64,000 bases of DNA from Alphaproteobacteria bacterium (GTDB taxonomy: Bacteria; Pseudomonadota; Alphaproteobacteria; GCA-2731375). Of this stretch, positions 3,233-19,100 are shown one piece after another; position 1 is the first letter of the stretch; each line of letters begins with the position of its first letter. Made by a program: the position numbers and the translations under genes. Below the pieces are notes generated by a model. That model was not told the origin of the DNA. It did no database searches and saw nothing but the letters and a program-made list of their open reading frames with translations. The stretch covers positions 1-64,000 of the forward strand of contig JAJFGG010000038.1 of the NCBI GenBank assembly GCA_021776235.1, written 5' to 3'.

Positions 3233-3949
3233 TCATTTTGCAGAGATCTCGGCAAGATTGCGTGCGGCCTGGCGCATCGCGGGCAGGTACGCGTCTGGCA
3301 GAAAGCGAGATGCCGGGCTTGAAATCGAAAGTGACCCCAAACACTGGCCGTCTTGATCGAGGATCGGCACCGCGATCGATGAAATGCCCGGCAAGGATTT
3401 TCCGCCACCGCCGATCGACACCTGATCCTGGCGCACCTTTGCAATTTGGGCCTTGCTTGGCAAAGAAATGCCCGATTGGCGCACGCGGTCGAGCAGATCG
3501 TCTGGTCCGAAGGCAAGCCAAATCGCACCGGATGAACTGTCCTCGTACGACAATTCGGTGCCGACCTGCAGATCGGCACGAAGCACGCCTTGCGATTCTG
3601 CCCGTCGCACGATGACAATTTTTTCTTGCTCCAACACGACAAGCGATACGGCTTCCCCCAATTCGGCGGCGAGCTGATCGAGGACAGGCTGGACACGCTC
3701 GCCAAAGCCGGCCTGCTTCAATGCCGCCGCGCCGATGCCGATGGCCCGTGTCGATAGGCGGTAGCTGCCGTCAGGCAGACGCTCTAACCAGCCAGCGGTC
3801 GTGAGCGTGAACAGGCGTTGATAGGTCGTGGCACGGGATTCGCCCAACATTCGCCCCAGTTCCGAAATGCGGACCGCGCCGGGCTGCTGCGCGATCGTGT
3901 CCAACAAGTGAAAGCATTTGAGGACAGTTGAAAGAGGCCGGACTTCCAT
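3233..3949 (-). CDS. IclR-family transcriptional regulator
   Basis: A 238-aa regulator. The start at 3949 has GGAG nine bases upstream; a longer reading to 4090 would overlap the divergent operon. The N-terminal winged helix (about 1-65) contains ISELGRMLGESRATTYQRLF, the recognition helix region. The C-terminal IclR effector domain carries VLRADLQVGTELSYEDSSSG and the closing segment SIAVPILDQDGQ. It is transcribed divergently from the BadI/AliA-like operon with about 125 bp between the starts, so it is the obvious local regulator, probably responding to an aromatic or alicyclic acid or its CoA ester. Candidate operator repeats lie at 3968-4006. Confidence 0.9.
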   Translation of the reverse strand: MEVRPLSTVLKCFHLLDTIAQQPGAVRISELGRMLGESRATTYQRLFTLTTAGWLERLPDGSYRLSTRAIGIGAAALKQAGFGERVQPVLDQLAAELGEAVSLVVLEQEKIVIVRRAESQGVLRADLQVGTELSYEDSSSGAIWLAFGPDDLLDRVRQSGISLPSKAQIAKVRQDQVSIGGGGKSLPGISSIAVPILDQDGQCLGSLSISSPASRFLPDAYLPAMRQAARNLAEISAK

Positions 3950-4074: not shown

Positions 4075-4854
4075 ATGGAATACGAAACAATCCTGTATGA
4101 AGAGTCGGGGCCAGTGGGAACGATCACGCTGAACCGGCCAGACGACGGCAACATGTTCACCGTCCAGATGTGTCACGAGATCCGCGATTGCATAAACGAG
4201 ATGCGTCGGGAAACCCGGACGCGAGTGTTGGTCATCACCGGCGCCGGCGATCGCTTCTTCTGCATCGGCGGTCGAAAGGAGGGGATGGAAGACACCAAAC
4301 TCTATGCCGGCGTGCTGCCCACACTCGAAATGTACGAAGCCATCGACCGCTTGCAAAAACCCGTCATCGCCAGCGTCAACGGCTATGCCGTCGGTGGCGG
4401 CAATGTGCTGCAGGTGGTTTGCGACATGACAATCGCCAAGGAAAGCGCAGTATTCCGCCAAGTTGGCCCGATGATGGGTTCGTTCGATGCAGGCTACGGC
4501 ACCTGGTACCTGGAAGACCTCGTTGGTAAGAAGCGCGCCAAGGAGATGTGGTTCTGCAATCAACGGCTTTCGGCCCAGGAAGCACTCGATATCGGGCTCG
4601 TCAATCGGGTCGTACCGGACGAACAGCTGGCGGACAAGACGCGAGAATTTGCCCTGGAAGTCGCTGATCGCGGCGCCTTCGCCCTGGCCTCCATCAAGGG
4701 TGCCTTCAACGCTCGGCATGGCGGCGTTGGCGGTTTGGCCCGTGTTGCGCACGATCTACTGTTACCGCAATACCTTCGTTCCGCAGAGGCAAAGGAACTC
4801 AGCAAGGCCTTTGCCGAGAAGCGGCCGCCTGAAGCTGATCTGTTCGGACAATGA
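4075..4854 (+). CDS. BadI/MenB-type crotonase, probable ring-cleaving ketoacyl-CoA hydrolase
   Basis: A 259-aa crotonase-fold protein. The oxyanion-hole segments are FFCIGGRKEG and NGYAVGGGNVLQ. The two hydratase glutamates are absent. Instead it has the MenB/BadI signature GSFDAGYGTWYLEDLVGKK, with the conserved Ser and Asp. MenB makes dihydroxynaphthoyl-CoA; BadI opens 2-ketocyclohexanecarboxyl-CoA to pimelyl-CoA. No other menaquinone genes are near, while a CoA ligase, a BadH-like dehydrogenase and an AliB-like acyl-CoA dehydrogenase follow, so a BadI-like ring hydrolase is the better call. It is the first gene of the operon, with seven bases to the ligase start. Confidence 0.82.
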   Translation: MEYETILYEESGPVGTITLNRPDDGNMFTVQMCHEIRDCINEMRRETRTRVLVITGAGDRFFCIGGRKEGMEDTKLYAGVLPTLEMYEAIDRLQKPVIASVNGYAVGGGNVLQVVCDMTIAKESAVFRQVGPMMGSFDAGYGTWYLEDLVGKKRAKEMWFCNQRLSAQEALDIGLVNRVVPDEQLADKTREFALEVADRGAFALASIKGAFNARHGGVGGLARVAHDLLLPQYLRSAEAKELSKAFAEKRPPEADLFGQ

Positions 4855-4861
4855 GGCAACG

Positions 4862-6484
4862 ATGAAACCATTCCTCACATTGCACCGTCCCGACCTAGCT
4901 CAACGGTATTATGCGGCCGATCTTTGGCAGGACCAGTCCTTCTACGACCTTTTGGTTCATCACGCCGAAACAGCCCCGGACCGTCAGGCGCTGAAGGATG
5001 GGCGCCATTCCTTAAGCTGGTCCGAGCTGCGCGACTGGACGGATGCGGTCGCGGCAAAGTTCTCGGATACTGGTTTGGTTGCGGGCGATCGGGTCTCGAT
5101 CTGGATGTCCAATCGCGCTGAGGCCATCGTTGCCTTCCTTGCTTGTTCACGGCAGGGCCTTGCCTGTAACCCCTCGCTTCACAGGACCTACACCTGCCAG
5201 GAAATCGTCACCTTGGTGGACCGGCTCGAGGCAGGCATCCTAATAACGGAACCCGATTGGGGTGCAGATCAGGGCGAAATTGACCGGGAGGCAATATTCG
5301 GCGGCGTTACCACTTTAAAGGCCGTCCTGGAGCCAAATTCATTACCACGGACGGCAGCCGGACCGTTACCGCCGACGGAGAGTGATCCTGACGGCGTCGG
5401 TTATCTCGCCTTTACGTCCGGTACGACCGGCGCGCCCAAATGCGTAATGCATTCGGCCAATACACTGCTCGCCAACGCACGGAATATGGTTAGTGATTGG
5501 GACATTAGCGGCGACACATGCTTGCTCTCCCTCAGCCCGCTTTCACACCACATCGCCTGGGTTGCCGTTGGGCAATGGTTACTGTCGGGCTGTTTGTTGA
5601 TTACGGATGATGCGCCAAAGGGCGTCGGTCAACTCGATTGGTTGCTCGATAATGACCCAACCTACGTCATGGGTGTTCCGACTCACGCTATGGATATCTT
5701 GAGCGAACTGAAGGCGCGCAGGTTGCCGTCCTTAGGCCGGGTCGAGACCTTCTATATGGCTGGAAGTCCGATTCCGCAGGTTGTTGCAGAAACTCTGGTC
5801 GACCTGGGCATCAAACCGCAGAACGTCTATGGCATGACGGAAAACTCATCACACCAGTACACCCACCCGGGCGACGGTGTGGAAATCTGGACGCGGACAT
5901 GTGGGCGCGGCGGCCCTGCTTATGAAGTTCGAATCTTCGATCAGGAGGATGCGAACAAGCGCCTGGAGGCTGGTAAAGTCGGTCAGATTGGTGGCCGTGG
6001 CGCAGCCCTGATGCTCGGCTATTTCGCGAACCAGGAAGCCACCGACAAAAGTTTCAATGACGACGGCTGGTTTCTTTCCGGCGATCTCGGCTCTCTGGAT
6101 GATGACGGCAATCTCAAGATAGAAGGGCGCCTCAAGGATATCGTCATCCGCGGCGGCCACAACATCCACCCGGCCCATATTGAAGACTATGCGTTGCGGC
6201 ACGCCGGCATCGAAAAAGCAGCTGCCTTTGCTGTGCCCGATGATCGTCTAGGCGAACGAGTCTGCTTGGCTATCCAAGGAACACCGGAACCTGCCGAAGT
6301 CCTCGACCACCTCGACGCACAAGGCCTCTCGAAATATGACATGCCTGAATACTTCCTCAGGGTCGAGGCATTTCCTCTGACGGCGAGCGGAAAAATCCTT
6401 AAACGCGACCTCTCCGACATGGTTCGAGGCGGCGAACTCAGTATCGAACCGGTTCGATTTACTGCCAATAAGGAGCGCGCCTGA
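4862..6484 (+). CDS. acyl-CoA synthetase, cyclohexanecarboxylate-CoA ligase-like
   Basis: A 540-aa AMP-forming ligase that would activate a carboxylic acid to its CoA thioester. Motifs in order: phosphate loop YLAFTSGTTGAPKCVMHS, YGMTENSS, the hinge SGDLG, IEGRLKDIVIRGGHNIHP and the C-terminal lysine motif PLTASGKILKRD. The ATG at 4862 follows GAGG and sits just after the crotonase stop; an in-frame extension back to 4487 lies entirely within that gene and is rejected. By context it resembles AliA, which activates cyclohexane carboxylate. The exact acid cannot be told from sequence. Its stop overlaps the next start by one base, so coupled translation is likely. Confidence 0.88.
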   Translation: MKPFLTLHRPDLAQRYYAADLWQDQSFYDLLVHHAETAPDRQALKDGRHSLSWSELRDWTDAVAAKFSDTGLVAGDRVSIWMSNRAEAIVAFLACSRQGLACNPSLHRTYTCQEIVTLVDRLEAGILITEPDWGADQGEIDREAIFGGVTTLKAVLEPNSLPRTAAGPLPPTESDPDGVGYLAFTSGTTGAPKCVMHSANTLLANARNMVSDWDISGDTCLLSLSPLSHHIAWVAVGQWLLSGCLLITDDAPKGVGQLDWLLDNDPTYVMGVPTHAMDILSELKARRLPSLGRVETFYMAGSPIPQVVAETLVDLGIKPQNVYGMTENSSHQYTHPGDGVEIWTRTCGRGGPAYEVRIFDQEDANKRLEAGKVGQIGGRGAALMLGYFANQEATDKSFNDDGWFLSGDLGSLDDDGNLKIEGRLKDIVIRGGHNIHPAHIEDYALRHAGIEKAAAFAVPDDRLGERVCLAIQGTPEPAEVLDHLDAQGLSKYDMPEYFLRVEAFPLTASGKILKRDLSDMVRGGELSIEPVRFTANKERA

Positions 6485-7191
6485 TGTCTGCAGATCAAAT
6501 CATCGTCACTGGCGCCAGCCGGGGAATTGGCGCGGCCATTGCGGTCGAACTCGCTGATCGGGGTTTTTCCATTGTCGGCCTATCGCGGGGCGGCCAAACC
6601 GCAGCTGGGCGCGGCATAGCCTGCGACATCACCGACGAAAATGCGGTACGCCGGGCGTTTGAAGACATTGCGGCAACGGGCCCTATCGCTGGCCTGGTGA
6701 ATAACGCCGGACTACATTTGTCGAGCCCATCCGCAGAGCTTCCGAGCGATGAGTACGAACAGGTCATGACGCTGAACGCGACGTCAGTAATGATCGCCTC
6801 AAGAGAGGCTTACCCCCATTTAAAGGCCGCCGGCGGCGGAACCATCGTCAACATGGGCTCATTTTTCGACAAGCTTGGGGTGCCGTCGAACCTGGCCTAT
6901 TGCGCCTCGAAGGCGGCTGTGGCGGCGATAACCCGATGCCTGGCGGTCGAATGGGCCGGCGACAAAATTCAGGTGCTTAACATCGCACCAGGATATGTCG
7001 CGACAGATCTTAATCGCGATTTTCTTGCCAGGGATCGCGTGCAAGCCTACCTGCAGCAGCGAATTCCGACAGGCGAACCAGGCAAGGCCGCTGATGTGGC
7101 TCAACTGGTCGGCGCGCTGCTCGCGGCCAAGATTCCGTTTTTGACCGGCGAGACTATCTATCTCGACGGCGGCCAAGGGATGAACCACTGA
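6484..7191 (+). CDS. short-chain dehydrogenase, BadH-like
   Basis: A 235-aa classical SDR. The nucleotide loop is TGASRGIG, followed by NNAG, the catalytic Ser region NMGSFFD, YCASK with Tyr and Lys, and the late PGYVATDL segment. In the R. palustris alicyclic pathway the SDR BadH oxidises 2-hydroxycyclohexanecarboxyl-CoA to the ketone that BadI hydrolyses. The same role fits here because the gene lies between ligase and acyl-CoA dehydrogenase and shares one-base stop/start overlaps with both. FabG-like activity is the alternative, but no fatty acid synthesis genes are near. Confidence 0.87.
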   Translation: MSADQIIVTGASRGIGAAIAVELADRGFSIVGLSRGGQTAAGRGIACDITDENAVRRAFEDIAATGPIAGLVNNAGLHLSSPSAELPSDEYEQVMTLNATSVMIASREAYPHLKAAGGGTIVNMGSFFDKLGVPSNLAYCASKAAVAAITRCLAVEWAGDKIQVLNIAPGYVATDLNRDFLARDRVQAYLQQRIPTGEPGKAADVAQLVGALLAAKIPFLTGETIYLDGGQGMNH

Positions 7192-8357
7192 TGAATATAT
7201 TTGAGCAGATGGCCCAGCAACGGGACTGGGCCGAAGAGGAGCGCATCATTCTCGATCAGGTGCAGCGGGTCTGCGATGACGTTGTTGCGCCCAATGCTGA
7301 ACGATATGACAAGGCAGCAGAGTTCCCTTGGGAGAGCATCACCGCCCTGAACGAGCTTGGCCTTAATGCGATCTTTGTGCCGGAAGCCTATGGCGGCATG
7401 CCGACCAGCTACGCGCTCTACCTGGAGTGCGTCAAAATGATCGCGGAAGCCTGCGCCTCCACCGGCATCATTTATGCCACCAGTTTCCATGGCATGAAGC
7501 CGATCATCGACTTCGGCACAGAGGATCAGCGCCGGCGTCTGTTGCCCCGTATCGCCGAAGGTGGACTGGGTGCGCTGGCAATTACCGAGACGTCCGCCGG
7601 TTCCGATGCGACGGGCATGAAGACCCGCTTTACGCCTGACGGTGACGACATCATCGTCGATGGTTCAAAGGTCTTCATATCAAATGGCGACGTTGCGGAT
7701 CTACTTCTGGTGTTCGGCAAATGGTCTGAGATTGATGACGATCGCCAAGCAATTTCGGTGCTGGTGTTGGAAAAAGACACGCCTGGCTTCGAAATCATCC
7801 GCAAGGAAGACAAAATGGGCCACCGCGCCTCTTCCACCGCCGCGCTGAGCTTTGCCGGTTGCCGCGTGCCGCGCAGCAATCTGCTGGGCAATCCCGGTGA
7901 TGGCCTAAACATACTTTTGGCCTCGCTCAACAAGTCGCGCCCGAGCATTGCCGCCCATGCCTTTGGGATTGCACGGGCAGCCTTCAGGGACATGATCACC
8001 TATACCAACGAACGGGTGCAATCGGGCCGCGCGGTGATCGATTTTCAGGGCAACCAGTTCATGATCGCCGACCTGGCCAGCGAAATGGCGATGGTGGAGA
8101 ACTGGATCGACTATGTCGCCGGCCTGGTGGACGGCGGCGCTGCAGACTTTGGCCTGGAAGCTTCCATCGCAAAAATGCGCGCCTCGGATTTGGCGATGCG
8201 CATGGCGACGGACGCCGTTCAGATGCATGGCGGCTATGGCTACTGCACGGACTACCGCGCCGAACGCCTGATGCGGGACGCCAAGATCACGCAAATCTGG
8301 GAAGGCACCAATCAGGTGCACCGTCAACTCATTGGCAGGAGCTTTCGAACGCAATGA
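7191..8357 (+). CDS. acyl-CoA dehydrogenase, AliB-like by context
   Basis: A 388-aa FAD flavoprotein. It shows the helical N-domain, the substrate and FAD segment LGALAITETSAGSDATGMKT, the middle beta-domain, and a C-domain ending in MHGGYGYCTDYRAERLMRD. The likely catalytic base is Glu371 in IWEGTNQVH, the position used by short- and medium-chain enzymes. It would introduce the ring or chain double bond next to the thioester, as AliB does for cyclohexanecarboxyl-CoA. Start and stop overlap the neighbouring genes (one and four bases), so it is part of the same operon. Electrons would pass to ETF, whose genes are not in the window. Confidence 0.9.
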   Translation: MNIFEQMAQQRDWAEEERIILDQVQRVCDDVVAPNAERYDKAAEFPWESITALNELGLNAIFVPEAYGGMPTSYALYLECVKMIAEACASTGIIYATSFHGMKPIIDFGTEDQRRRLLPRIAEGGLGALAITETSAGSDATGMKTRFTPDGDDIIVDGSKVFISNGDVADLLLVFGKWSEIDDDRQAISVLVLEKDTPGFEIIRKEDKMGHRASSTAALSFAGCRVPRSNLLGNPGDGLNILLASLNKSRPSIAAHAFGIARAAFRDMITYTNERVQSGRAVIDFQGNQFMIADLASEMAMVENWIDYVAGLVDGGAADFGLEASIAKMRASDLAMRMATDAVQMHGGYGYCTDYRAERLMRDAKITQIWEGTNQVHRQLIGRSFRTQ

Positions 8358-9232
8358 CCAGGATCCGAAAAGTTGGAGTGTGCGGCGCTGCCGGCACCAT
8401 GGGCGCCGGCATAGCCATCGTGGCGGCCCGGGCTGGCTTCGAAACCGTGGCTTATGATTTGAGCAGCGATGCTCTGAGCCAGGCGGCGGAAAACACAGCC
8501 GGTTTCTTCGAGAAATCCGTCGCGCGCGGGAAGATGTCCAAAAGCGATCGTGATGCTGTTTTGGCAAGGTTAACCAGCACGAACGACTTGGCTGACCTGG
8601 GCAACTGCGATCTGGTCATCGAGGCTGTGTACGAGGACCCGAAGGTAAAACAGGATCTACTCGCAACCCTCGACGCCACGTGCGCGGACCACACGATACT
8701 TGCCTCCAACACATCCACGCTGTCGATCACGGAAATCGCCTCCGGTTGCAGTCGCCAGGACCGGGTCGTGGGCATGCATTTTTGCCTGCCGGCTCAGCTC
8801 ATGAGGTTGATCGAGATGTCACCCGGCGTGAACACATCGGATGAAACGTTTCAGGCAGCCTGGGCCTGGACCGAGGCCGTCGGCCAGGTCCCCGTCCGCA
8901 CCCAGGACAAGCCGGGTTTCATCCTCAACGCGCTGCTGGTGCCGTTTAACAACGAGGCGATCCGAGCGGTAGAGGCCGGCGTGGCCGAACCAGCCGATAT
9001 CGATCACGCCATCAAGGCTGGTCTGGGTTACAAGATGGGCCCGCTCGAACTCATCGATCTCGTCGGCCTCGATACCCAAGTCCGCCTATGCGAGGCCTTT
9101 TACCCGATCACTCTTGACCCACGGGCAGCCGCACCGGCGCTTTTGCGCCGCATGGTTGCCGCCGGACGCCTTGGCCGTAAATCGGGCAGCGGCTTCTACA
9201 ACTACGATGACCAAGCCATGTACGGGAGCTAG
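8354..9232 (+). CDS. 3-hydroxyacyl-CoA dehydrogenase, N-terminal part of a PaaH-like pair
   Basis: A 292-aa NAD-dependent L-3-hydroxyacyl-CoA dehydrogenase. Its Rossmann domain begins VGVCGAAGTMGAGIA, followed by LVIEAVYED and LASNTSTLSI. The catalytic His is in VVGMHFCLPAQLM. The C-terminal dimerisation domain ends GRKSGSGFYNYD. Length matches HbdA/FadB2-type single-unit enzymes. The next gene encodes what looks like the remaining linker and second C-terminal domain of longer PaaH-type enzymes, suggesting that a protein of about 505 aa has been split into two. It would act on the ring-opened hydroxyacyl-CoA or on the cyclic hydroxy thioester. Confidence 0.88.
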   Translation: MTRIRKVGVCGAAGTMGAGIAIVAARAGFETVAYDLSSDALSQAAENTAGFFEKSVARGKMSKSDRDAVLARLTSTNDLADLGNCDLVIEAVYEDPKVKQDLLATLDATCADHTILASNTSTLSITEIASGCSRQDRVVGMHFCLPAQLMRLIEMSPGVNTSDETFQAAWAWTEAVGQVPVRTQDKPGFILNALLVPFNNEAIRAVEAGVAEPADIDHAIKAGLGYKMGPLELIDLVGLDTQVRLCEAFYPITLDPRAAAPALLRRMVAAGRLGRKSGSGFYNYDDQAMYGS

Positions 9233-9237
9233 GCGAG

Positions 9238-9879
9238 ATGAGCTACATGATTGTAAATAGCGGCGGAAGCCGTTCTTTCCCCACAGGCGATGCTTTCCTC
9301 GAACACGCTGCGGCGGACGCCGACATTGTGCTCTACCTTGGCGGCGCCAAAATGCGGGCCGACGAGCAAAAAACAGCGATCCTAGTTGAGTTGGGCGGCG
9401 AATGCCTCGGCGTCCATACCGGTGAAGGCGAGGGAACGAATGCGGGCAAGGAAGGCTCCAACATCCTGGGCTTCAACCGCTACCGTAACGGCCATGATGA
9501 ACCCTCAAATCTGATCGAGCTGGTGCGCCAACCGCGTACGCACGAAACTGCGTTGCGCGCCGCCAAGACATTGTTCACGACTGCCGGGCTCGAGGTCGCG
9601 GTTTGCTCCGACCAGGCGGGACGCATTATCGACCGCCTGGTACGGCCAAAGTATAACGCCGCGCTGCGCTTCCTTGATGAAGGTCTGGCCAGCGCCAAGG
9701 ATATGGATCTGACCTGTCGGATGGGCCTGGGCTACCCTGACGGCCCGATCGAACGGGTCTGTCGGGGCGGACTGGCCCATCACCATGACGTCACCGAAGC
9801 CCTGTTCCGGATCTACGGAACCGCTGGTTACGCACCGGCGCGCCGCGCCGTGGTCGCCAAGCAAAGGGCTCCACAATAA
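9238..9879 (+). CDS. stand-alone 3-hydroxyacyl-CoA dehydrogenase C-terminal domain protein
   Basis: A 213-aa protein with no nucleotide-binding loop. Residues 1-100 (DADIVLYLGGAKMR) resemble the linker region of long PaaH-type dehydrogenases. Residues about 115-205 match a 3HCDH C-terminal domain, with GRIIDRLVRPKYNAALRFL and GLGYPDGPIERV. It starts five bases after the preceding dehydrogenase, with its own ATG and an AGGCGAG ribosome site, so it is a separate cistron rather than a simple frameshift. It probably associates with the 292-aa protein to rebuild a two-C-domain enzyme. Its catalytic contribution is unknown. Confidence 0.72.
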   Translation: MSYMIVNSGGSRSFPTGDAFLEHAAADADIVLYLGGAKMRADEQKTAILVELGGECLGVHTGEGEGTNAGKEGSNILGFNRYRNGHDEPSNLIELVRQPRTHETALRAAKTLFTTAGLEVAVCSDQAGRIIDRLVRPKYNAALRFLDEGLASAKDMDLTCRMGLGYPDGPIERVCRGGLAHHHDVTEALFRIYGTAGYAPARRAVVAKQRAPQ

Positions 9880-9916
9880 TGACCAAAATTACACTGAAAC
9901 CAAAGGGAGAAACACC

Positions 9917-10261
9917 ATGATTAAACGTATGTCACTATTGCGTCGCAAATCGGGTCTGACGGAGGAGGAGTTCGACCGGCATTGGCGGGACATACACGGA
10001 CCGCTCGTAGCCGAACTGCCCGGATTGCGTCATTACACGCAAAACAGCCCAATTGGCAAAGTCGAAGGCCCCGCCCAAATTCCGGTGGCGGATGCCAACG
10101 TTCAGGTCGACGGCATCACCGAGCTTTATTTCGATAGCTTCGAAGCTATGGAGGCTGCCTATACCTCGGAACAAGGCAAGTTGTGTTTAGACGACGGCGA
10201 GCTGTTCATCGGATCAGCCACCACGTTTACCGTCACCGAACGCATCATCAAGGATTTTTGA
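9917..10261 (+). CDS. EthD-domain protein
   Basis: A 114-aa dimeric alpha-beta barrel protein. The ATG at 9917 has AAAGGGAG just upstream; a longer in-frame reading from 9785 overlaps the previous gene and is rejected. The hallmark is FDRHWRDIHGPLVAELPGLRHY, followed by a central strand with ITELYFDSFEAM. EthD was named from an ether-degradation cluster; such small proteins occur in many catabolic operons, often with uncertain roles as monooxygenase-like or carrier proteins. It continues the catabolic operon after the split dehydrogenase with a 37-bp gap. No catalytic function is claimed. Confidence 0.78.
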   Translation: MIKRMSLLRRKSGLTEEEFDRHWRDIHGPLVAELPGLRHYTQNSPIGKVEGPAQIPVADANVQVDGITELYFDSFEAMEAAYTSEQGKLCLDDGELFIGSATTFTVTERIIKDF

Positions 10262-10337
10262 CCGTCCTGTATGTTGGCCCGGTTCGATGTAGCCGGGCCA
10301 GGCGAAAGGACGACGTTTGCTGCAAGGGAGCAATATC

Positions 10338-11333
10338 ATGAAAGCCGTATGCGTTCGCGAATTCGGCCCCTACCACGGGGCCAAGGTCGAAGATCTCGAC
10401 GATCAAATACCGGGTCCGGACGAAGTTGTCATCGGCGTCCGGGCGGCTGAGGCCAATTATCCCGATATCCTGGTCATGCAGGGCGACTATCAGATCAAGC
10501 CGCCCTTGCCGTTTTCTCCTGGAAAGGCCGCAGCCGGCGTCGTCGAAGCCGTCGGCTCCGCTGTGACGGCTCTAAAACCCGGCGATCACGTCGCAGCGCA
10601 GGTCGAACATGGCGCCTATGCCGAAAAACTGAAGGCGAGCGCGGCAACATGCTATCCCATGCCGGAAGATATGCCGTTTACCGACGCTGCGGCGCTGGGG
10701 CTGGTCTACCAAACCTCGCATTTCGCCTTGGTGGAACGAGCCGGCCTGGCGGCGGGTGAGACCGTCCTGGTTCTGGGCGCCTCGGGCGGCATCGGCATCG
10801 CCAGTGTCCAACTGGCTAAGGCGCTGGGCGCGAACCGGGTCATCGCAGGGGTTCTTGGCGCCGAGAATGTTGCAGTGGCCAGCACAGCCGGTGCGGATCA
10901 CGTCATCGACCTGGCGATGGATGACCTGCGCGATGGGCTACGGGACGCCATCAACGACATCACAGGAGGCCTGGGCGTCGATGTCGTGATCGACCCGGTT
11001 GGCGGTGCGACCAATGCCGCCGCCCTGCGGGCCATGGCGTGGCGTGGGCGCATGGTCATTATCGGATTTGCCTCAGGCGAAATCCCGACCATCAAGTCCA
11101 ACTACCTTCTGGTGAAAAACATCGCCGTGAGCGGCCTGCAATGGTCCGACTACCGGGAGCGCGAACCGGCTTGGGTGGCAAACGTTCAACAAGAACTTTT
11201 CGATCTGTATCAGGCTGGAAAACTTACCCCACACATATCGAAGCGTTTCCCACTGGAAGGGTTTTCCGAAGCGCTTGATTTGTTAAAAGCCGGGAAGGTG
11301 CAAGGCAAGGTCATCCTGACGCTTGACGTCTGA
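10338..11333 (+). CDS. NADPH:quinone oxidoreductase-type medium-chain reductase
   Basis: A 331-aa zinc-free medium-chain dehydrogenase/reductase. The ATG at 10338 has AAGGGAG upstream. The N-terminal GroES-like domain has PFSPGKAAAGVVEAVG, where zinc enzymes would carry GHE. The Rossmann domain opens LVLGASGGIGIASVQLAKA, and DVVIDPVGG follows. It lacks catalytic-zinc ligands, so it belongs with QorA, zeta-crystallin and enoyl reductases rather than alcohol dehydrogenases. In this cluster it may reduce an enone or enoyl-CoA, or a quinone by-product. It follows the EthD gene after 76 bp and may have its own transcription or continue the operon. Confidence 0.85.
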   Translation: MKAVCVREFGPYHGAKVEDLDDQIPGPDEVVIGVRAAEANYPDILVMQGDYQIKPPLPFSPGKAAAGVVEAVGSAVTALKPGDHVAAQVEHGAYAEKLKASAATCYPMPEDMPFTDAAALGLVYQTSHFALVERAGLAAGETVLVLGASGGIGIASVQLAKALGANRVIAGVLGAENVAVASTAGADHVIDLAMDDLRDGLRDAINDITGGLGVDVVIDPVGGATNAAALRAMAWRGRMVIIGFASGEIPTIKSNYLLVKNIAVSGLQWSDYREREPAWVANVQQELFDLYQAGKLTPHISKRFPLEGFSEALDLLKAGKVQGKVILTLDV

Positions 11334-11411
11334 GCCTCACCCGACCGGCGCGAACACAAATATCGGATTGAAACGGAAGGCATCGCCTTTCGTACGGCTA
11401 AAGGATAGAAG

Positions 11412-12470
11412 ATGAGCAACAAAACGAAAACCGCGCTGATCGCCGGCGCGACCGGGGTCGTCGGGCGAAATCTCCTCAAGTACGTTCTGTCACGCGGGGA
11501 CTGGAACGTGATTACGTTGTCGCGACGTCGTCCGGATCTCGAGGGTGCGTACACCCATATCCCCGTCGATCTATTGGATCCCGACGATTGCCGGGAAAAG
11601 CTGGGTGGACTTCAGGACATCACCCATGTGTTTTTTGCCGCCTACATCGAACGCCCGACATGGGCTGAAACCGTCCCGCCGAACGTCGATATTCTGCGCA
11701 ATTTGATGGATGCGGTCGAACCGGTGGCGGCCAACCTTCAACATGTGAATCTAATGCATGGCACCAAGTGGTATGGCAATCATCTCGGGCCGTTCAAGAC
11801 GCCGGCGCAGGAAGATGATCCGCGTCACATGCCGCCCAATTTCTACTACGACCAACAAGACCTCGTTGCCGAAAGGGCAAAAGGGAAGGCTTGGACCTGG
11901 TCAACCGCCCGGCCCCATGGCATCTGCGGTTTCGCGATCGGTAATCCGATGAATTTGAGCATGGTCGTGTCGGTCTACGCGACCATCTCTAAAGCATTGG
12001 GTCTGCCTCTCCGTCACCCCGGATCTGTTGCCAATGCCAACGCTCTTTACCAAGTTACCGACACCTCGCACTTGGCCAAGTCGGCTGTCTGGATGTCGAC
12101 CGAACCGGGCTGCGCCAACCAACCCTTTAACATCACCAATGGCGATATCTTCCGTTGGGCCGATATGTGGCCCGCATTCGCCAAATATTTCGGAATGGAT
12201 TTAGCGCCGCCGCAGCAAATCAATTTGGAGCACATGATGGCGGACAAGGGCAATCTCTGGACGGACATCGTCGAGCAACATGGTTTGCAAGATATCCCTT
12301 ATGACCAGCTGGTGTCATGGGCCTATGGGGATTTCGTCTTTACGCCGGAGTACGACATTATTTCCTCGATGACCAAAGCACGGCAGTTTGGATTCCACGA
12401 TATCGTCGATTCCCGGCAAATGTTTTTGTCCTTGTTCGATGATTTGAGACAGAACCGCATAATTCCCTGA
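11412..12470 (+). CDS. PRISE-type SDR enone reductase (progesterone 5-beta-reductase/iridoid synthase-like)
   Basis: A 352-aa atypical SDR. GATGVVG at 12-18 binds NADPH. Instead of the usual YxxxK, it has the two motifs typical of the PRISE group: MHGTKWYGNHLGPF, with the catalytic-type Lys119, and NFYYDQQD, with Tyr145/Tyr146. PRISE enzymes reduce the C=C of activated enones such as progesterone, 8-oxogeranial or cyclohexenone. Length is close to plant and bacterial homologues. It sits in the middle of the island's catabolic genes, next to EthD-like and SDR genes. An enone reduction in degradation of a cyclic ketone or terpenoid is the natural inference; the substrate is unknown. Confidence 0.82.
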   Translation: MSNKTKTALIAGATGVVGRNLLKYVLSRGDWNVITLSRRRPDLEGAYTHIPVDLLDPDDCREKLGGLQDITHVFFAAYIERPTWAETVPPNVDILRNLMDAVEPVAANLQHVNLMHGTKWYGNHLGPFKTPAQEDDPRHMPPNFYYDQQDLVAERAKGKAWTWSTARPHGICGFAIGNPMNLSMVVSVYATISKALGLPLRHPGSVANANALYQVTDTSHLAKSAVWMSTEPGCANQPFNITNGDIFRWADMWPAFAKYFGMDLAPPQQINLEHMMADKGNLWTDIVEQHGLQDIPYDQLVSWAYGDFVFTPEYDIISSMTKARQFGFHDIVDSRQMFLSLFDDLRQNRIIP

Positions 12471-12559
12471 AGGTCGTCTATTGCACATCAGGCAGAGATG
12501 CATCTCTTGCTAGCGATTTATCGGGGTAGAAATTTGAATGAACAAGGAGGGATGAAGTC

Positions 12560-12865
12560 ATGACAGCATATCTCATTGTACGGGCCGTAGTGCCTCAGGA
12601 AGACCGCGCTGATTTCGATAGCTGGTATGAGCGAGAGCACCTACCAGACGCCAAGCGGGCATTCGGCGCGAAGTCCGCATTCCGTGGCTGGACGTTCGAA
12701 GACGATAGTCTTCACTATGCAATGTACGAATTTGCGAGTTTGGAGATCGCGCGTTCTACTCTGGATTCCGAAGCCCTTAAAGCGATGGTGGCGGAGTTCG
12801 ATCGAACTTGGCTGGGCCGTGTGACCCGTAGCCGGGAAATTATTGAAATCGCCCAGCGGCTATGA
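12560..12865 (+). CDS. small EthD-like dimeric alpha-beta barrel protein
   Basis: A 101-aa protein preceded by AAGGAGGGATG, a strong ribosome site. Its main feature is FDSWYEREHLPDAKRAFGA near residues 18-36, of the pattern FxxWYxxEHxP. The same pattern appears twice in the 215-aa protein at 13819-14466. The fold is probably a ferredoxin-like alpha-beta barrel that dimerises. It lies 89 bp after the PRISE gene and 60 bp before an SDR. It may bind or process a pathway intermediate, but no catalytic assignment is made. Confidence 0.72.
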   Translation: MTAYLIVRAVVPQEDRADFDSWYEREHLPDAKRAFGAKSAFRGWTFEDDSLHYAMYEFASLEIARSTLDSEALKAMVAEFDRTWLGRVTRSREIIEIAQRL

Positions 12866-12925
12866 CGCCATAGGTCGGTGGTCAGACATCCGCTTCCAAT
12901 CTCATGAAATCAAGGAGACCGGCAA

Positions 12926-13660
12926 ATGACAAAATTGCAGGGTAAAGTCGCTCTAGTCACCGGTGCCGGCAGCGGTATCGGTCGGGCAACGGCAATTCGA
13001 TTGAGCGCGGACGACGCAAAGGTCATCGCGACAGATATTACCATTGATGTTGATGAGATTGATGGGGTTGAGTTTATCAAGCATGACGTCCAGGAAGAAG
13101 GCGCTTGGGAGGATCTCATGGCGTCAATCGAGCGAAATCACGGGCGTTTGGATATTCTGGTTAATAACGCGGGCATTCTGCGAGAGGCGCCAATTGAGGA
13201 GACGTCCTTCGAAATGTGGAGCAGCGTTTTATCCACCAATCTCACCGGAACGTTCTTTGGCTGCAAACATGCAGTGCCATTGTTGGCGCAATCGGAGGGC
13301 GGCGCTATTGTCAATGTTTCTTCTATTGATGCTCTAAGCGGCAGCTTTCATCATGCAGCCTACGCGGCATCCAAGGGAGGCGTCGCGGCCCTCACACGCG
13401 CTGCCGCTATGGAACTGGCGGAACGTGGCATTCGTGTCAACGCCGTCTGTCCCGGATCGGTCGAAACGCCGATGGCCGAAGCGATGTTCGCAGCCAGCGA
13501 AGACCCGGAACTGGCGGAGCGGCGCCGCGAGGTGCATCCCCTCGGCCGCATCTCCACGCCGGAAGAACAAGCAGACGCGATTGTCTTTCTTTGCGGACCC
13601 GACGCAGCTTTTATCACCGGTGCCGTATTGCCCGTCGACGGCGGTCGGGCCATTCGCTGA
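12926..13660 (+). CDS. short-chain dehydrogenase/reductase
   Basis: A 244-aa classical SDR: TGAGSGIGRATA loop, NNAGIL, NVSSIDALSGS with the catalytic Ser, YAASKGG with Tyr and Lys, then VCPGSVETPMAEAM and the C-terminal DGGRAIR. The FASTA-independent cofactor hint is the acidic residue at the end of strand 2 (IATDITID), which favours NAD(H). AAGGAGACCGG lies upstream of the ATG. It would oxidise or reduce an alcohol/ketone pair in the island pathway and is distinct from the BadH-like SDR at 6484. Substrate unknown. Confidence 0.87.
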   Translation: MTKLQGKVALVTGAGSGIGRATAIRLSADDAKVIATDITIDVDEIDGVEFIKHDVQEEGAWEDLMASIERNHGRLDILVNNAGILREAPIEETSFEMWSSVLSTNLTGTFFGCKHAVPLLAQSEGGAIVNVSSIDALSGSFHHAAYAASKGGVAALTRAAAMELAERGIRVNAVCPGSVETPMAEAMFAASEDPELAERRREVHPLGRISTPEEQADAIVFLCGPDAAFITGAVLPVDGGRAIR

Positions 13661-13818
13661 TGGAGATCGCCGGTGACAAAATCTCTGTTCACCACGGGGC
13701 TTTCTGCGTGACCGCTTTACTCTGAGCTGTGGGCTTGGTTAGCGACACGGCCAACAACCACTGTCTTTTCCGGCGTAGGGTAAACGGATAGGGTCAGTGA
13801 AATTATAAGGAGGATAGC

Positions 13819-14466
13819 ATGGCCAAAGGCCTGCTCGCAGCCGCATTTGATTTCTCGAACGCGCATAGTGACGAATTCCACGATTGGTATGATCTGGAGC
13901 ATATTCCCGAGCGCCAGGCCGTTCCCGGTTTTGGCGCCTCCGAACGCTGGATCAGCGTCGAGAAGCCGACCATAGCGGTAGCGACCTACGATCTCGACAC
14001 GCTTGATGTGTTGCAAAGCGAAAGCTACCAATCCGTTGCTCATGAGAACATCACGGTCTGGTCTAAACGGGTCACCACCATGTGTGATTATTTACTGCGA
14101 TTCGAGGGCAGCCAAATAACGCCGGGTGAAGCCATCGCGCCAGAGGGCGCCGGCGGTATGTTGCTCAATGCCATGAATGTCACGGCCGAGGCCGAAGCGG
14201 ATTTTAATGCCTGGTATGATGAGGAGCATTTGCCGGCGCTTTTGGCCGTACCCGGCACCCTGGCGGCCCGGCGCTACCGCTCGGGCGAGGATCCGCAGGG
14301 CAAGCGCAGTCATCGCTATCTGGCGATTTACCACCTCACTTCGCCGGAGGTAACACGGAGCGCTGCCTGGAAAGCCGCCGTTGACACCCCATGGAGCGAT
14401 CGGATGCGACCGCATTTCCGGGACCGAATGCGCCTCCTGACACGGCGCTATGTCCGCAACACCTAG
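13819..14466 (+). CDS. tandem EthD-like protein
   Basis: A 215-aa protein built of two alpha-beta barrel halves. The first half has FHDWYDLEHIPERQAVPGF near residue 20, the second FNAWYDEEHLPALLAVPGT near residue 135. Each matches the FxxWYxxEHxP motif of the 101-aa protein at 12560, so it probably arose by duplication and fusion and folds as an intramolecular dimer. AAGGAGGATAGC precedes the ATG. The conserved Trp, Tyr, Glu and His could line a ligand pocket. It sits between an SDR and a cupin gene in the island. Function unknown; a role in substrate handling is inferred from context. Confidence 0.75.
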   Translation: MAKGLLAAAFDFSNAHSDEFHDWYDLEHIPERQAVPGFGASERWISVEKPTIAVATYDLDTLDVLQSESYQSVAHENITVWSKRVTTMCDYLLRFEGSQITPGEAIAPEGAGGMLLNAMNVTAEAEADFNAWYDEEHLPALLAVPGTLAARRYRSGEDPQGKRSHRYLAIYHLTSPEVTRSAAWKAAVDTPWSDRMRPHFRDRMRLLTRRYVRNT

Positions 14467-14633
14467 CCGCGCTGTCCAACGTTCCGGAATAACACCGGTA
14501 TTTCCCGGAGCTCATCGCTTCACGGGCGATAGGCGGGCATCGAAAAGACATAGGCCGCCATCCTAGCTGCTATATGGTTAGGTTGATTACTCTGTCCCTA
14601 GGGTGTGAATAACGACTCACGGAGCGCAATTGG

Positions 14634-15284
14634 ATGAAGATGGAACTAAGGCTACATGAAGACACGCCTTTTGCTTCGAACACATGGCACCTCGGTCCGG
14701 GCGTGCCGCGCGCGATCTACGTGTCTGCCGGGCAGGTGACGATCAATGGCACCGTGTTGGAGCAGGACGACGGAATTGTTTCGTCAGAAGAATTGACCAT
14801 CGTCGCGGGTGGTCAAGGCGCGACCCTATGGCGCTGGGAGGTCACACCAGAGTCGGCTGCCGTCGCGGCTCTTGCTGGGCGCGGCACCATGCGTTTGGCG
14901 GCGCCAATTTACGCCGCTGCAATTTCTGACAGTCTTCTCATGCGGCTGGACAGCGTTGCGTTCCCGCCTGGAGGGTGCGCACTTCTCCACACCCACCAAG
15001 GGCCGGGAATTCGTTGCCTACGGGAAGGTAGCATCCGTATAGACACTGAGGGACGTTCAGCCTCCTATGGTCCTGGCGGCGCCTGGTTCGAGGCCGGGCC
15101 AGAGCCAGTCTTCGCCCAGGCGGCTCAAGATCAATCCAGCCGCTTCATTCGCGCCATGGTGTTGCCGCGCGCGTTGATGGGCGTTTCATCCATTCACTAC
15201 GTGAATGAGGTTGATCGGGGGAAGCCAAAATCACAAAGCTATCGGGTCTGGTCGGAAGCCGCTATCGAGTTTCCCGAAGAATAA
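14634..15284 (+). CDS. cupin-fold protein
   Basis: A 216-aa protein with what looks like two cupin-type halves. The C-terminal half carries metal-site-like residues in FPPGGCALLHTHQGPGIRCL, followed by GSIRIDTEG and YGPGGAWFEAGPEPVFA; the His pair resembles cupin motif 1. The N-terminal half (about 1-90) has strand-rich sequence without clear metal ligands. No signal peptide is present. Cupins of this type include small dioxygenases, isomerases and binding proteins. It lies in the catabolic island upstream of the broken SDR. The fold is supported moderately; the reaction is unknown. Confidence 0.65.
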   Translation: MKMELRLHEDTPFASNTWHLGPGVPRAIYVSAGQVTINGTVLEQDDGIVSSEELTIVAGGQGATLWRWEVTPESAAVAALAGRGTMRLAAPIYAAAISDSLLMRLDSVAFPPGGCALLHTHQGPGIRCLREGSIRIDTEGRSASYGPGGAWFEAGPEPVFAQAAQDQSSRFIRAMVLPRALMGVSSIHYVNEVDRGKPKSQSYRVWSEAAIEFPEE

Positions 15285-15298
15285 TTCAGGAGGATATC

Positions 15299-15694
15299 AT
15301 GCGGTGTGAAGGAATGGTTGTGGTCGTCACGGGCGGCGCCATGGGAATTGGCCGCGCCATCGTTGAAGGTTTCCTTGACCAGGATGCCTCTGTTGTCTTA
15401 GCGGACAAGTCCGGCGCCAAGGAGGCCGCTGAGTCATTGGCGCAACAGGGTCGGCACGTTGTTGGAGTTGCTTGCGATGTCTCAAGCGCCAAAGAAACCC
15501 AGGCCATGGCTCAGGCCGCTCTTAATGAGTTTGGCCGGATCGATGTCCTCGTAAACAACGCAGGCATTTATTCTTCCTTGACACCAAAACCGTTCGAGGA
15601 ATTGGAGGCCGAAGATTGGCGGCAGGTACCTAGCACGCTTGCGGGACTCAACAGCATTTGTCGGACGTCACCTGTGGATTTTGTCTCTTTTTAG
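15299..15694 (+). pseudogene. truncated short-chain dehydrogenase
   Basis: An SDR that begins normally with a TCAGGAGGATATC ribosome site, TGGAMGIGRAI loop and VLVNNAGIYSS, but loses homology after EEDWRQ-like residues near base 15626. It ends at 131 aa with an unrelated tail, where a complete SDR would run to about 250 aa. The catalytic Ser and Tyr-Lys region is missing, so it cannot be an active dehydrogenase. The break lies about 200 bp before the tRNA attachment scar. This suggests that the 3' half was lost when the island edge formed or was rearranged. Confidence 0.8.
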
Positions 15695-15822: not shown

Positions 15823-15867
15823 CTCCGAAGGCAGAGGTCGCACGTTCGAATCGTGCCGGGTGCGCCA
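15823..15867 (+). other. tRNA-Arg(CCG) 3' fragment, probable integration scar (att site)
   Basis: Forty-five bases match the 3' part of an alphaproteobacterial tRNA-Arg: anticodon loop CTCCGAA, 3' anticodon stem GGCAG, T arm GCACG-TTCGAAT-CGTGC with perfect pairing, acceptor strand CGGGTGC, discriminator G and encoded CCA. The bases upstream do not pair as the 5' anticodon stem (CTGCC would be needed), so this is not an intact gene. Site-specific integrases leave such 3' copies at the far end of islands inserted into tRNA genes. Its orientation puts the island on the left. Confidence 0.82.
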
Positions 15868-16165: not shown

Positions 16166-19100
16166 TTAGATAATAAAGTCGTCCTGATGCAAATTGGCGA
16201 TTTGAACGCCGATGAGCGTCACCGTCCCTTCGTTGCTGAAGGTAATCGTTGTGTCCGTGGTGCCGACGTTATCGTCGGCCAAGGCCAGCAGATCTCCCAG
16301 GTTACCCAGGTTGAGCGCGGTAACATCGATCCTGTCCTCCGACCCGGCACCCGCCGAGAAGTCGGTGATCGTATCGTGGCCGTTGTATTCGCCGAACACA
16401 AACAAGTCATCGCCAATGCCGCCGGTGTATCTGTCATTGTCGGACTCGATCACGACAATGGCGCCATCGCCATCATCATGCTTGTCATGGCCTTTGCCTT
16501 TGTCATGACCCTTGCCGCCGCCATGACCACCATGGCCGTGATCGTCGTCGTGGTCGTGTTTGTCGTGGCCCTTGCCTTTGCCTTTGTCATGGCCCTTGCC
16601 GCCACCATGACCACCATGGCCACCATGGCCGTGATCGTCGTCATGGTCGTGTTTGTCGTGTCCCTTGCCTTTGTCATGGCCCTTTTCTTTGCCATGGCCC
16701 TTGCCATGGTGGTGGCCGTGATGTCCATGGCCGCCGGCGTCGATCTCGACCACCGCGCCCGCATCGATGATGGTGTCGTTGCCGCCGTCGCCGGTGACCT
16801 CGTCGTCGCCGGTGCGGGCGTCGATCAGGTCATTACCGCCATTGCCGCGGATCAGGTTGCCGCCGCCATCGCCAAGCAGTTCGTCGTCAATTCTCGAGCC
16901 GGTAATATCCTCTATGTTGGCCAGGGTATCGACGCCGCCTTCTCCGTCGTGCGCCACGCCCGCCGCCAGGTCGACGAAGACACCGGCGCCGGCTGTATTG
17001 AAATCAACCCGGTCCACGCCGCCGCCGCCATCAATGAAGTCATCGCCCTGATCGCCACGAAACTGTTCGTCGGCGGCGCTGCCAAGCAGTGTGTCATCGT
17101 AATGGGAGCCCCATGCACGGCTCACGCCGGTGAAGGTATCCAGGCCGATATTCGCGACATCCCCGCCAGCGCTGCTATACGATTCGCCATTGATCAGATC
17201 GACAGTGACGGCGGCGTCGGCACTGCTGAAGCGCACCCGTGTCGTGCCGTTACCGGTGATCGTGTCGTCGCCGCCCATGCCCTCGATGTCGGCCAGGTCA
17301 AAATAGGAACTCTGGAAACTGCCATCGACGGTGAAGGTGTCGGCGAAATCGCTGCCCTGGATGAACTCGACACCGGTCAAGGTATCGGTGCCGACACCCG
17401 CGCCGATGACCGTCGACACGACGCTCAGGGTCGCGGTGATCCCGCCGGTGGCGTCGGTATATATGGCCCTGTCGTAATCGAACGGGCCTTCGCCGTTGCC
17501 GCCGGTATAGATGTTGTCATCCGTGCCCGAGCCGCCAATCAGGGTGTCGTTGCCGGCACCGCCCTGCAGAGTGTTGACGCCGTCACCGCCTTCGATAACG
17601 TCATCTCCGCCGCCGCCCACGATACGGTCATCACCACCGCCGCCCTGCAGCAGGTCGTCGCCGCCCTCGCCGCGGATGAAATTGGCGCCGTCATCGCCGA
17701 TCAGCGTATCGCCATTGTTGCTGCCACGGATATTTTCAATGTTGAAAAGGGTATCAACATTGCCCCAGCCGTCGTCGTAGGTGAAACCGGCGGCCAGATT
17801 GACGGTAACCGCGCCAGGTGTGCTGTAGCGGACCGTGTCGGCGCCTGCGCCGCCGTCGATCCAGTCGTCGCCACCGCGCATGCGGAATTCGTCGTCGCCG
17901 GCGCTTCCCAACGCATAATCCTCGTGATTGGTGCCGCGCAGGCTGAAAATACCGGCACCGATGGTATCGGTGCCGCCCCAGCCATCCAATACCGTATTGG
18001 CGCCAACGGTGGTGGTCGAAGGGTCGCCGAAGGTGAACGCTGCCGACGACAGGTTGGCGAATATGCCGTCCGGCGAAGCATGATACGAAATCCGTGTCAG
18101 TCCATTACCCGAAATGGTGTCATCACCCGCCATGCCCTGGAATTCGGTGAATGTTCCGAAAGAGCCGTTGAAGCCGCCATCAGCCGACATAACGTCGTTG
18201 CCGCTGGAACCGTCAATCCGTTCGACACTGGTCAATGAGTCTGTATTGCCCCATCTGTCAGTGACCGTACTGACGGCGCCCAAGTGCGCAACAATGCTGC
18301 TGCTCGTTGTCGGTATGTCGTCATACTGATCGTTCCGGTAACTGGCGATGTCATAGCCGCCGCCGCCATCGATATCATCGTTGCCGCTGCCGCCCTGGAA
18401 CCAATCGTCGCCGCCGGCACCGGACATCGTGTCGTCGCCACCATTGCCCTGCAGGCTATTTGCTCCGCCGTCACCAACGAGTGTATCGCCCAGGCTGGAG
18501 CCCTGGATATCTTCAAAGCCGGAAAGCGTATCCGTATCGCCCCAGTTGTCCGTGGCAAGGCCCGCGGCAAGGTCCACCGTGACACCCTGAGTGACCGGGA
18601 TGTCGTCCCAGTAGGCGTTCTCATGATAGCGGACGGCGTCCCGCCCGGATCCACCTGTCAAATCGTCGCCGCCCGAGCCGCCGACGACGGTGTCATTATC
18701 GGCGCCGCCGTCGATGGTATCGGCACCGCTAGCGCCGGACAGGTAGTCGTTACCGCCACGGCCGTCGATGTCATCGCCGCCATCGCCGCCAAACAGTTGG
18801 TTGTCTAGATTGTCACCAAGAATGGTGTCATTGAGCTGTGAGCCTCCCACATTCTCGATGCTGACAAGGGTATCGGTATACCCCCAGCCATCAGTGGCGG
18901 TGCCCGCCAGCAGGTCAACGTAGGCGCCCTGAGTGATGGCGCCGGCGCCATCGAAACCGTCGTCAAAATACTCGGCCGAATCCCAGTTCGCGCCGCCATC
19001 AAGAATGTCGTTGCCGCTGCCGCCGTACAGGCTGTCGTTGCCCGCCAAGCCATACAGTTCATCGTTGCCCATGCGGCCGAAGGCGTAGTTATCTCCGGTC

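Follow-up and report, generated by a model that had tools for sequence, protein, structure and literature searches.

A conserved operon carrying a separate MenB/BadI-type crotonase clade and recurrently linked to PRISE enone reductases: probable ring opening in an alphaproteobacterial gene cluster

What kind of substrate would be served by a row of genes that sets a crotonase of MenB/BadI type on the same strand as a PRISE (progesterone 5beta-reductase/iridoid synthase-like) enone reductase? Such a row lies in the first 16 kb of a 64,000-nucleotide stretch of DNA from an Alphaproteobacteria bacterium (assembly GCA_021776235.1, contig JAJFGG010000038.1, positions 1 to 64,000), which we call the window. 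An initial annotation had read positions 4075 to 15284 as a candidate cluster for alicyclic or terpenoid degradation with steps like those of BadI, AliA, AliB and BadH. We divided the row into block 1 (window 4075-9879 plus QOR, a quinone-reductase-like gene at about 10338-11333) and block 2, the PRISE-containing upper module, and identified the genes by Pfam and NCBIfam profile searches of the window proteins. Our comparisons suggest that block 1 is a probable ring-opening operon for small non-aromatic ring compounds. In alpha- and beta-proteobacteria it recurs, on chromosomes and plasmids alike, as a well-conserved operon carrying a clade of probable ring-opening crotonases, and it provides a recurrent catabolic context for bacterial PRISE enzymes.

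The crotonase, ECH1 (4075-4854, plus strand), is proposed as the ring hydrolase. It scored 236.1 and 209.8 bits against NCBIfam MenB models (cut-offs 380 and 342.7) and 217.8 bits against the BadI model TIGR03210 (cut-off 467.6), reaching none of these cut-offs, and its best match among solved structures was the MenB 2iex at 211.9 bits. For phylogeny, 94 of 114 distinct crotonases entered the residue alignment; those fitting no group were excluded, as were L101 and L151. The tree of these 94 and the residue counts were made without the window row, which reads the same as its relatives at columns 156, 161 and 163 (E. coli MenB numbering throughout). ECH1 relatives, MenB and BadI together formed a 66-row group with support of 100/100. 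Within this group the ECH1 relatives made a clade of 33 rows (100/99), or of 34 with the Rhodococcus protein (100/100), neighboured by MenB (98/99), BadI (100/99) and two small further clades. A second tree of 74 rows, with the window row in, own-genome paralogs out and fewer rows of ECH2 (the hydratase of related operons), gave support of 100/99 for ECH1 and 85/97 for MenB. ECH1 is a further clade of the common MenB/BadI group and is neither MenB nor BadI. Grouping with true MenB, an outcome that the initial annotation had singled out for checking, was rejected since the scores fall under the cut-offs and ECH1 stands in its own clade in both trees; BadI was rejected on its score and on the position of ECH1 outside the BadI clade. 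Other members of the group emerged alongside: L248:7914, L249:7780 and L250:8730 make up one small clade that is neither MenB, BadI nor ECH1, and L251:6492, L252:8468, L253:6744 and L254:8129 make up another. We also saw Ala in the Asp163 column in 4 of 11 "BadI-range" rows.

Ser161, Asp163, Gly156 and Trp184 are invariant across the 33 ECH1 relatives. Ser161 and Asp163 are likewise present in 11/11 MenB and 9/9 BadI rows, and Gly156 and Trp184 in 9/9 BadI and 7/11 MenB rows. Column 156 holds Glu in 20/20 ECH2 sequences, whereas the ECH1 relatives have Gly there. A clade that retains Ser-x-Asp but has lost the hydratase Glu would suit carbon-carbon bond chemistry on a CoA ester.

We found that the genes around ECH1 are conserved as an operon. 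A tblastn search returned ECH1 proteins of 70-79% identity on 12 plasmid records, followed by a drop to 54% (Rhodococcus), and we read the annotated stretches of 10 of these 12 records and of one Rhodococcus record. Nine of the 11 stretches (two Cupriavidus, Burkholderia, Paraburkholderia, Achromobacter, two Aminobacter, Celeribacter and Salipiger) share the order ECH1, ligase, ECH2, short-chain dehydrogenase/reductase (SDR), acyl-CoA dehydrogenase, hydroxyacyl-CoA dehydrogenase (one or two genes) and QOR, usually with a CaiB-type CoA-transferase ahead of QOR; in Achromobacter, ECH2 is fused to the SDR. In 7/11 stretches, a sigma-54 regulator is divergent and a CoA-transferase comes just before ECH1 (in Aminobacter SS-2016 this CoA-transferase is unannotated and was recovered by tblastn). 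Some stretches also carry a thiolase and an additional hydroxyacyl-CoA dehydrogenase with two domains. The genes are rearranged in Ancylobacter, and Rhodococcus has only some of them. The core order also recurs in further genomes beyond the annotated plasmid records, and ECH1 identity is 70-81% across the alpha- and beta-proteobacteria that share it. Gene-order tables counted matches of at least 30% identity over at least half the query length; gene ends in unannotated loci were set by hand or by simple gene callers, so their starts are approximate. The G138, G397, G429, G479, G715 and G508 stretches showed no ECH2 between the ligase and SDR genes. Since the same core order recurs in other genomes, we rejected a chance neighbourhood for block 1, and the check for co-occurrence of the gene set elsewhere, which the initial annotation had proposed, turned out in its favor.

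Within a sample of the host's own class, ECH1 (E <= 1e-70) was present in 8 of 385 genomes, and it was found in none of the four other genomes shown from the host's genus or family. Because of this rarity and absence, the window's copy may have been acquired. Among the 11 plasmid-search records we noticed no shared pollutant phenotype, and a search of the open-access literature gave no paper for Ancylobacter strain ZM13. In Rhodococcus opacus B4 (L118:13001-15423), an IclR gene lies about 0.9 kb downstream of the 54%-identical ECH1 relative.

In the window, ECH1 is followed on the plus strand by a class I acid-CoA ligase of the AMP-binding family (4862-6484; PF00501, 197 bits), whose listed open reading frame from 4487 is overlong, the likely start being 4862, just past the crotonase stop. 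Next come SDR1 (6484-7191; active site YCASK) and an acyl-CoA dehydrogenase (7191-8357) with the motif IWEGT, the Glu of which we take to be catalytic. A 3-hydroxyacyl-CoA dehydrogenase is split over two genes: 8354-9232 encodes the N-terminal half of a PaaH-like enzyme, and the product of 9238-9879 (PF00725; PRK08268 positions 378-490) aligns solely to the second half of such enzymes. From the ligase through this second gene, the reading frames overlap or lie at most 5 bases apart; later gaps reach about 170 bases. An EthD-family gene (9917-10261; PF07110; TIGR02118 at 65 bits, cut-off 30.5) precedes QOR (10338-11333; PF00107/PF08240), a medium-chain dehydrogenase/reductase resembling NADPH:quinone reductases. 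In relatives it is the final core gene of block 1, and the QOR at the end of their operons is 46-60% identical to that of the window. We looked for the GHE zinc motif in QOR and found none, in agreement with its first description as a zinc-free reductase.

In relatives with ECH2, block 1 supplies each step of a route like that for cyclohexanecarboxylate (bad-ali). From the gene set we infer every reaction given here, the order of the reactions and the ring nature of the substrate. The ligase would convert a ring acid into its CoA thioester and the acyl-CoA dehydrogenase would desaturate the ring acyl-CoA. Hydration would be carried out by ECH2 in many relatives and, in the host, by another of its many genomic crotonases. 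SDR1, the proposed hydroxy-ring-acyl-CoA dehydrogenase in the role of BadH, would then yield a 2-oxo-ring-carboxyl-CoA, which ECH1 would open by hydrolytic carbon-carbon cleavage (retro-Dieckmann), like BadI, and the resulting dicarboxyl-CoA would enter beta-oxidation.

A different reading of the same genes is ordinary beta-oxidation of a branched or substituted acyclic acid, with ECH1 as a hydratase or thioesterase-like enzyme and PRISE acting on a linear enone. A split hydroxyacyl-CoA dehydrogenase, thiolase and CoA-transferases are all ordinary beta-oxidation parts. Among proteins of known structure, the acyl-CoA dehydrogenase comes closest to general acyl-CoA dehydrogenases, and its NCBIfam score for AcrC (335.9 bits, cut-off 640) exceeds that for AliB (146.4 bits, cut-off 575.35). 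However, the ECH1 clade is without the hydratase Glu, has the MenB/BadI Ser-x-Asp and groups with MenB and BadI, and many relatives' operons hold ECH2 as a separate hydratase. We consider an acyclic substrate possible, though fairly unlikely.

The PRISE gene (11412-12470, plus strand) encodes a protein with 97.5 bits against PF22917 (cut-off 27) in which both motifs named in the initial annotation, GTKWY and NFYYD, are present. To determine how often PRISE accompanies ECH1, we counted both in two samples of genomes. Among 349 genomes of the Burkholderiales, the order of Noviherbaspirillum genome G399, ECH1 was present in 16, PRISE (E <= 1e-60) in 45 and both in 13 (Fisher p = 2e-10, a value that ignores kinship and genome size). 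In the host's class, PRISE was present in 54 of 372 genomes. Seven of the eight ECH1 genomes were taken as lying within this sample (G390 left out, as its PRISE is missing from the sample's list; G112 assumed in), and six of the seven had PRISE; with the own genome excluded, PRISE occurred in 5/6 ECH1 genomes versus 48/365 others (Fisher p = 3e-4, with kinship and genome size again ignored). The combination with PRISE noted in the initial annotation therefore recurs in other genomes. Among the papers listed by our searches of the open-access literature, we found no description of a PRISE gene combined with such an operon.

The two are also repeatedly linked on the DNA. Among the Burkholderiales ECH1 genomes, G563, G429, G479, G664 and G436 have PRISE and ECH1 on one contig within 13 kb of each other, and in G751 PRISE lies near the second half of the operon, so that 6/16 ECH1 genomes are linked. 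The count becomes 7/16 with Noviherbaspirillum G399, where ECH1 is on a different contig and PRISE stands about 6.6 kb away from a QOR; behind this QOR come a hydroxyacyl-CoA dehydrogenase with two domains and a thiolase, resembling the operon end. In G563 and G429, PRISE is the immediate neighbour of the CoA-transferase gene that comes first in the operon; in G664, G436 and G751, which are near-identical lineages, it lies within about 3 kb of the operon QOR. The Cupriavidus plasmids pRK1-1 and pMTS2 carry PRISE upstream of the operon, about 2 kb from its first CoA-transferase gene, and in Methylobacterium frigidaeris about 7 kb separate ECH1 from PRISE. We then placed linked PRISE proteins on a FastTree phylogeny of 133 of 151 rows (at least 42% identity, plus all linked), in which the label "not seen" means that no block-1 gene was seen in the DNA examined and is not proof of absence. 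The 13 linked rows, in which PRISE is at most about 13 kb from the operon or from some of its genes, are scattered over this tree with at least nine label changes, eight of them forced by starred branches. This scatter implies that several PRISE subclades came to lie near the same operon. The link between PRISE and the operon is not a one-off.

Downstream of PRISE, all on the plus strand, are a small EthD-like gene (12560-12865), SDR2 (12926-13660), a tandem EthD-like (DUF4286) gene (13819-14466; PF14114) and a cupin-like gene (14634-15284). The gene inventory of the initial annotation was borne out by Pfam and NCBIfam, apart from the small EthD-like protein, for which Pfam gave no match, and the cupin, which matched neither Pfam nor NCBIfam; both were named by eye. 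Several of these neighbours recur near PRISE or ECH1 elsewhere. SDR2 shares 52% identity with the SDR whose gene lies directly upstream of the PRISE gene of Cupriavidus pRK1-1. Relatives of the small EthD-like protein, at 52-55% identity, lie about 1-2 kb away from PRISE (L082, L022) or about 9 kb away from ECH1 (L154), and the tandem EthD protein has relatives of 39-50% identity that share a stretch with PRISE (L192, L245) or with ECH1 (L192, L195). L022 has an IclR gene divergent from PRISE that shares 52% identity with the window's IclR-family regulator (3233-3949, minus strand; PF01614/PF09339), itself divergent from block 1. Two PRISE genes of G664 flank the gene of an FAD-dependent protein, which scores highest against tricarballylate dehydrogenase (197 of 369 bits) and lower against ketosteroid and oxocyclohexane-carboxylate dehydrogenases, in no case reaching the cut-off. 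These upper-module neighbours hint at cyclic ketones and enones, and none of them names a substrate.

In the upper part of the pathway, SDRs would oxidise or reduce ring hydroxyls, PRISE would reduce the carbon-carbon double bond of a cyclic enone with NADPH, and the EthD and cupin proteins would contribute auxiliary, isomerase-type steps. We give about an even chance to the whole scheme, namely bad-ali-like ring opening by ECH1, fed by the PRISE-containing upper module, with an alicyclic compound as the substrate.

Several observations weigh against this scheme. Three departures from MenB and BadI stand out in ECH1: Arg at column 153 in 33/33 relatives, which is specific to the clade; Arg (28/33), Glu (3/33) or Gln (2/33) at column 87, where all 20 MenB and BadI rows have Asp; and Leu in the Tyr258 column in 32/33, with a Tyr one column earlier, through a one-residue insertion, in 30/33, whereas Tyr258 itself is found in 11/11 MenB and 9/9 BadI rows. 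Because of Arg153, the missing Asp87 and the Leu in the Tyr258 column, the reaction of ECH1 may differ from those of MenB and BadI, and we know of no ECH1-clade enzyme with a known activity. The branching order among the clades is not settled by the trees, both of which gave warnings of long-branch joins, the Rhodococcus relative included. The window has neither the ECH2 hydratase nor the CoA-transferases of many relatives' operons. PRISE is not adjacent in most ECH1 loci that we read, and only five of 30 PRISE-bearing genomes, chosen from 80 PRISE loci, have ECH1. Finally, in none of the other seven ECH1 genomes of the own-class sample is PRISE near ECH1, the closest distance being 68 kb (G390, on a 5.5-Mb contig).

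This last finding would suit blocks 1 and 2 being unrelated pathways that are mere neighbours on a catabolic island, with PRISE detoxifying reactive enones. Plant PRISEs are promiscuous 1,4-enone reductases, 2-cyclohexen-1-one being among the substrates studied, and they are discussed as detoxifiers of reactive enones (PMC11643720). The L022 locus has IclR and PRISE besides EthD-like genes, and a search of its genome gave no ECH1. Different PRISE subclades nevertheless lie repeatedly close to the same operon, at the positions beside its CoA-transferase and QOR genes described above, and co-occurrence with ECH1 is strong. We therefore view two unrelated pathways as improbable. A separate setting for PRISE was also seen: in L036-L038, L042-L046 and L051, relatives of about 50% identity belong to another conserved cluster with biotin carboxylase, carboxyltransferase-type subunits, MmgE/PrpD, an amidohydrolase and a GntR/UTRA regulator.

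Within a ring-opening scheme, there is also a variant in which hydroxylated alicyclic acids (quinate- or cyclitol-like) are broken down without aromatisation. Here an SDR would make a ring ketone, an AroQ-like dehydratase would remove water to give a cyclic enone, PRISE would saturate it, and the deoxygenated ring acid would be opened by the ECH1 clade, whose added Arg residues might hold an extra polar group. Cupriavidus, Noviherbaspirillum, alpha proteobacterium BAL199 and G140 encode an AroQ-like protein no more than about 3 kb from PRISE. These proteins are without the THTS and HHS stretches of Skermanella AroQ, which presumably carry catalytic residues, and the AroQ-like gene is found near PRISE in relatives and not in the window. 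We regard this variant as a long shot. As an observation in its own right, these AroQ-like (type II dehydroquinase-like) proteins near PRISE are a divergent subfamily (L109:11539-11982, L025:12138-12542, L055:11613-11951 and L163:4933-5304), with one stop in the aligned part of the L055 stretch; a literature search for catabolic type II dehydroquinase paralogs gave nothing useful.

The first 16 kb of the window thus hold a plus-strand row from ECH1 to a truncated SDR3, with the IclR, NodB-fold and GST genes divergent from it. The glutathione S-transferase (GST) gene (1158-1853, minus strand; PF14497/PF02798) and the gene for a NodB-fold, polysaccharide-deacetylase-like hydrolase (2233-3150, minus strand; PF01522, 46 bits) lie nearby, and neither had a relative at E <= 1e-8 and 60% coverage among the other loci compared. 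SDR3 (15299-15694, plus strand) matches PF00106 at positions 2-104 of 195 only and ends after about 110-130 residues; by eye, no SDR-like continuation was found past its stop in the three forward frames. About 140 bases past this stop is a fragment resembling a tRNA 3' end (15835-15867, plus strand), recognised by eye, possibly an old insertion site. A genome search allowing up to two mismatches found this fragment a single time, and ARAGORN found no tRNA gene in the window. The cluster may be an island remnant. An IS481-type transposase (integrase core plus IS481 leucine zipper; 85-1038) is located at the contig start beside the cluster, and 16166-19702, a few hundred bases past the tRNA 3'-end-like fragment, encodes a 1178-residue RTX-repeat protein with eight HemolysinCabind stretches. 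Positions 37392-58220, on the right of the window, look like housekeeping chromosome (MiaB-like radical SAM protein, Lnt, NusA and polynucleotide phosphorylase).

Comparison with known systems places block 1 closest in logic to the bad-ali pathway, with which it shares the reaction set of CoA ligase, acyl-CoA dehydrogenase, hydratase, SDR dehydrogenase and MenB/BadI-type ring hydrolase. Even the hydratase gene missing from the window has a parallel, since that gene is reported missing from most Burkholderiales bad-ali clusters (PMC9795900). One could hence take block 1 for the cyclohexanecarboxylate pathway proper, or for a monoterpenoid-acid pathway, with diverged sequences; the BadI score of ECH1 and the score of the ligase for cyclohexanecarboxylate-CoA ligase (AliA, TIGR03208, 225.3 bits of a cut-off of 792.3) are among the better NCBIfam matches. 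Yet ECH1, the ligase and the acyl-CoA dehydrogenase reach only a quarter to under half of the BadI, AliA and AliB cut-offs, and the 25 best families of SDR1, the last of which scores 115.4 bits, do not include BadH (cut-off 431.2). The host genome has a separate set on contig C16, namely a BadI-like protein (442.4 bits, cut-off 467.6) that falls inside the BadI clade of the 94-crotonase tree, a BadH-like protein (334.3 bits, cut-off 431.2) and an acyl-CoA dehydrogenase alongside, the two scores lying below the strict cut-offs. Regulation differs as well. Bad-ali clusters, a pathway represented by Rhodopseudomonas palustris and Aromatoleum sp. CIB, have MarR or TetR regulators, and badK is often missing (PMC9795900), whereas block 1 has no MarR-type BadR, the regulator of Gram-negatives: IclR stands in the window and sigma-54 in 7/11 plasmid stretches. 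Block 1 and its kind further add a split hydroxyacyl-CoA dehydrogenase, QOR and the PRISE module and, in relatives, CoA-transferases. The mrc cluster of Castellaniella defragrans 65Phen resembles our scheme in that a proposed hydratase, dehydrogenase and ring hydrolase act in turn on a CoA-bound ring acid. MrcE, which is proposed as its hydrolase for the limonene pathway, is reported to share 88% identity with a BadI, in contrast to ECH1, which lies outside the BadI clade of a tree that does not include MrcE itself, and no PRISE appears among the mrc table rows examined (PMC4109377). A monoterpenoid acid as substrate, as first suggested, is left unsupported by this comparison. Because of the low family scores, the separate BadI-clade set, the closeness of MrcE to BadI and the differing regulators, block 1 is by descent not most like a plain cyclohexanecarboxylate or limonene-type route, and we hold such a route to be quite improbable. 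Thus the bad-ali-like logic first proposed for block 1 stands, while an identity of its enzymes with the Bad/Ali enzymes themselves is not supported. With MenB (1,4-dihydroxy-2-naphthoyl-CoA synthase), ECH1 shares Ser161, Asp163 and its top structure match, and it differs in its separate clade, its score and the lack of Asp87 and Tyr97. The window PRISE resembles the plant enzymes in its Lys and Tyr motifs and in near full-length matches of about 190-200 bits to 2v6f (progesterone 5beta-reductase), 6el3 and 5coa (iridoid synthase); it differs in being bacterial and in standing in a catabolic gene row, and the family, called VEP1 in PMC3144213, is described there as having spread by lateral transfer. 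Taken together, block 1 is best read as a bad-ali-like, non-orthologous route.

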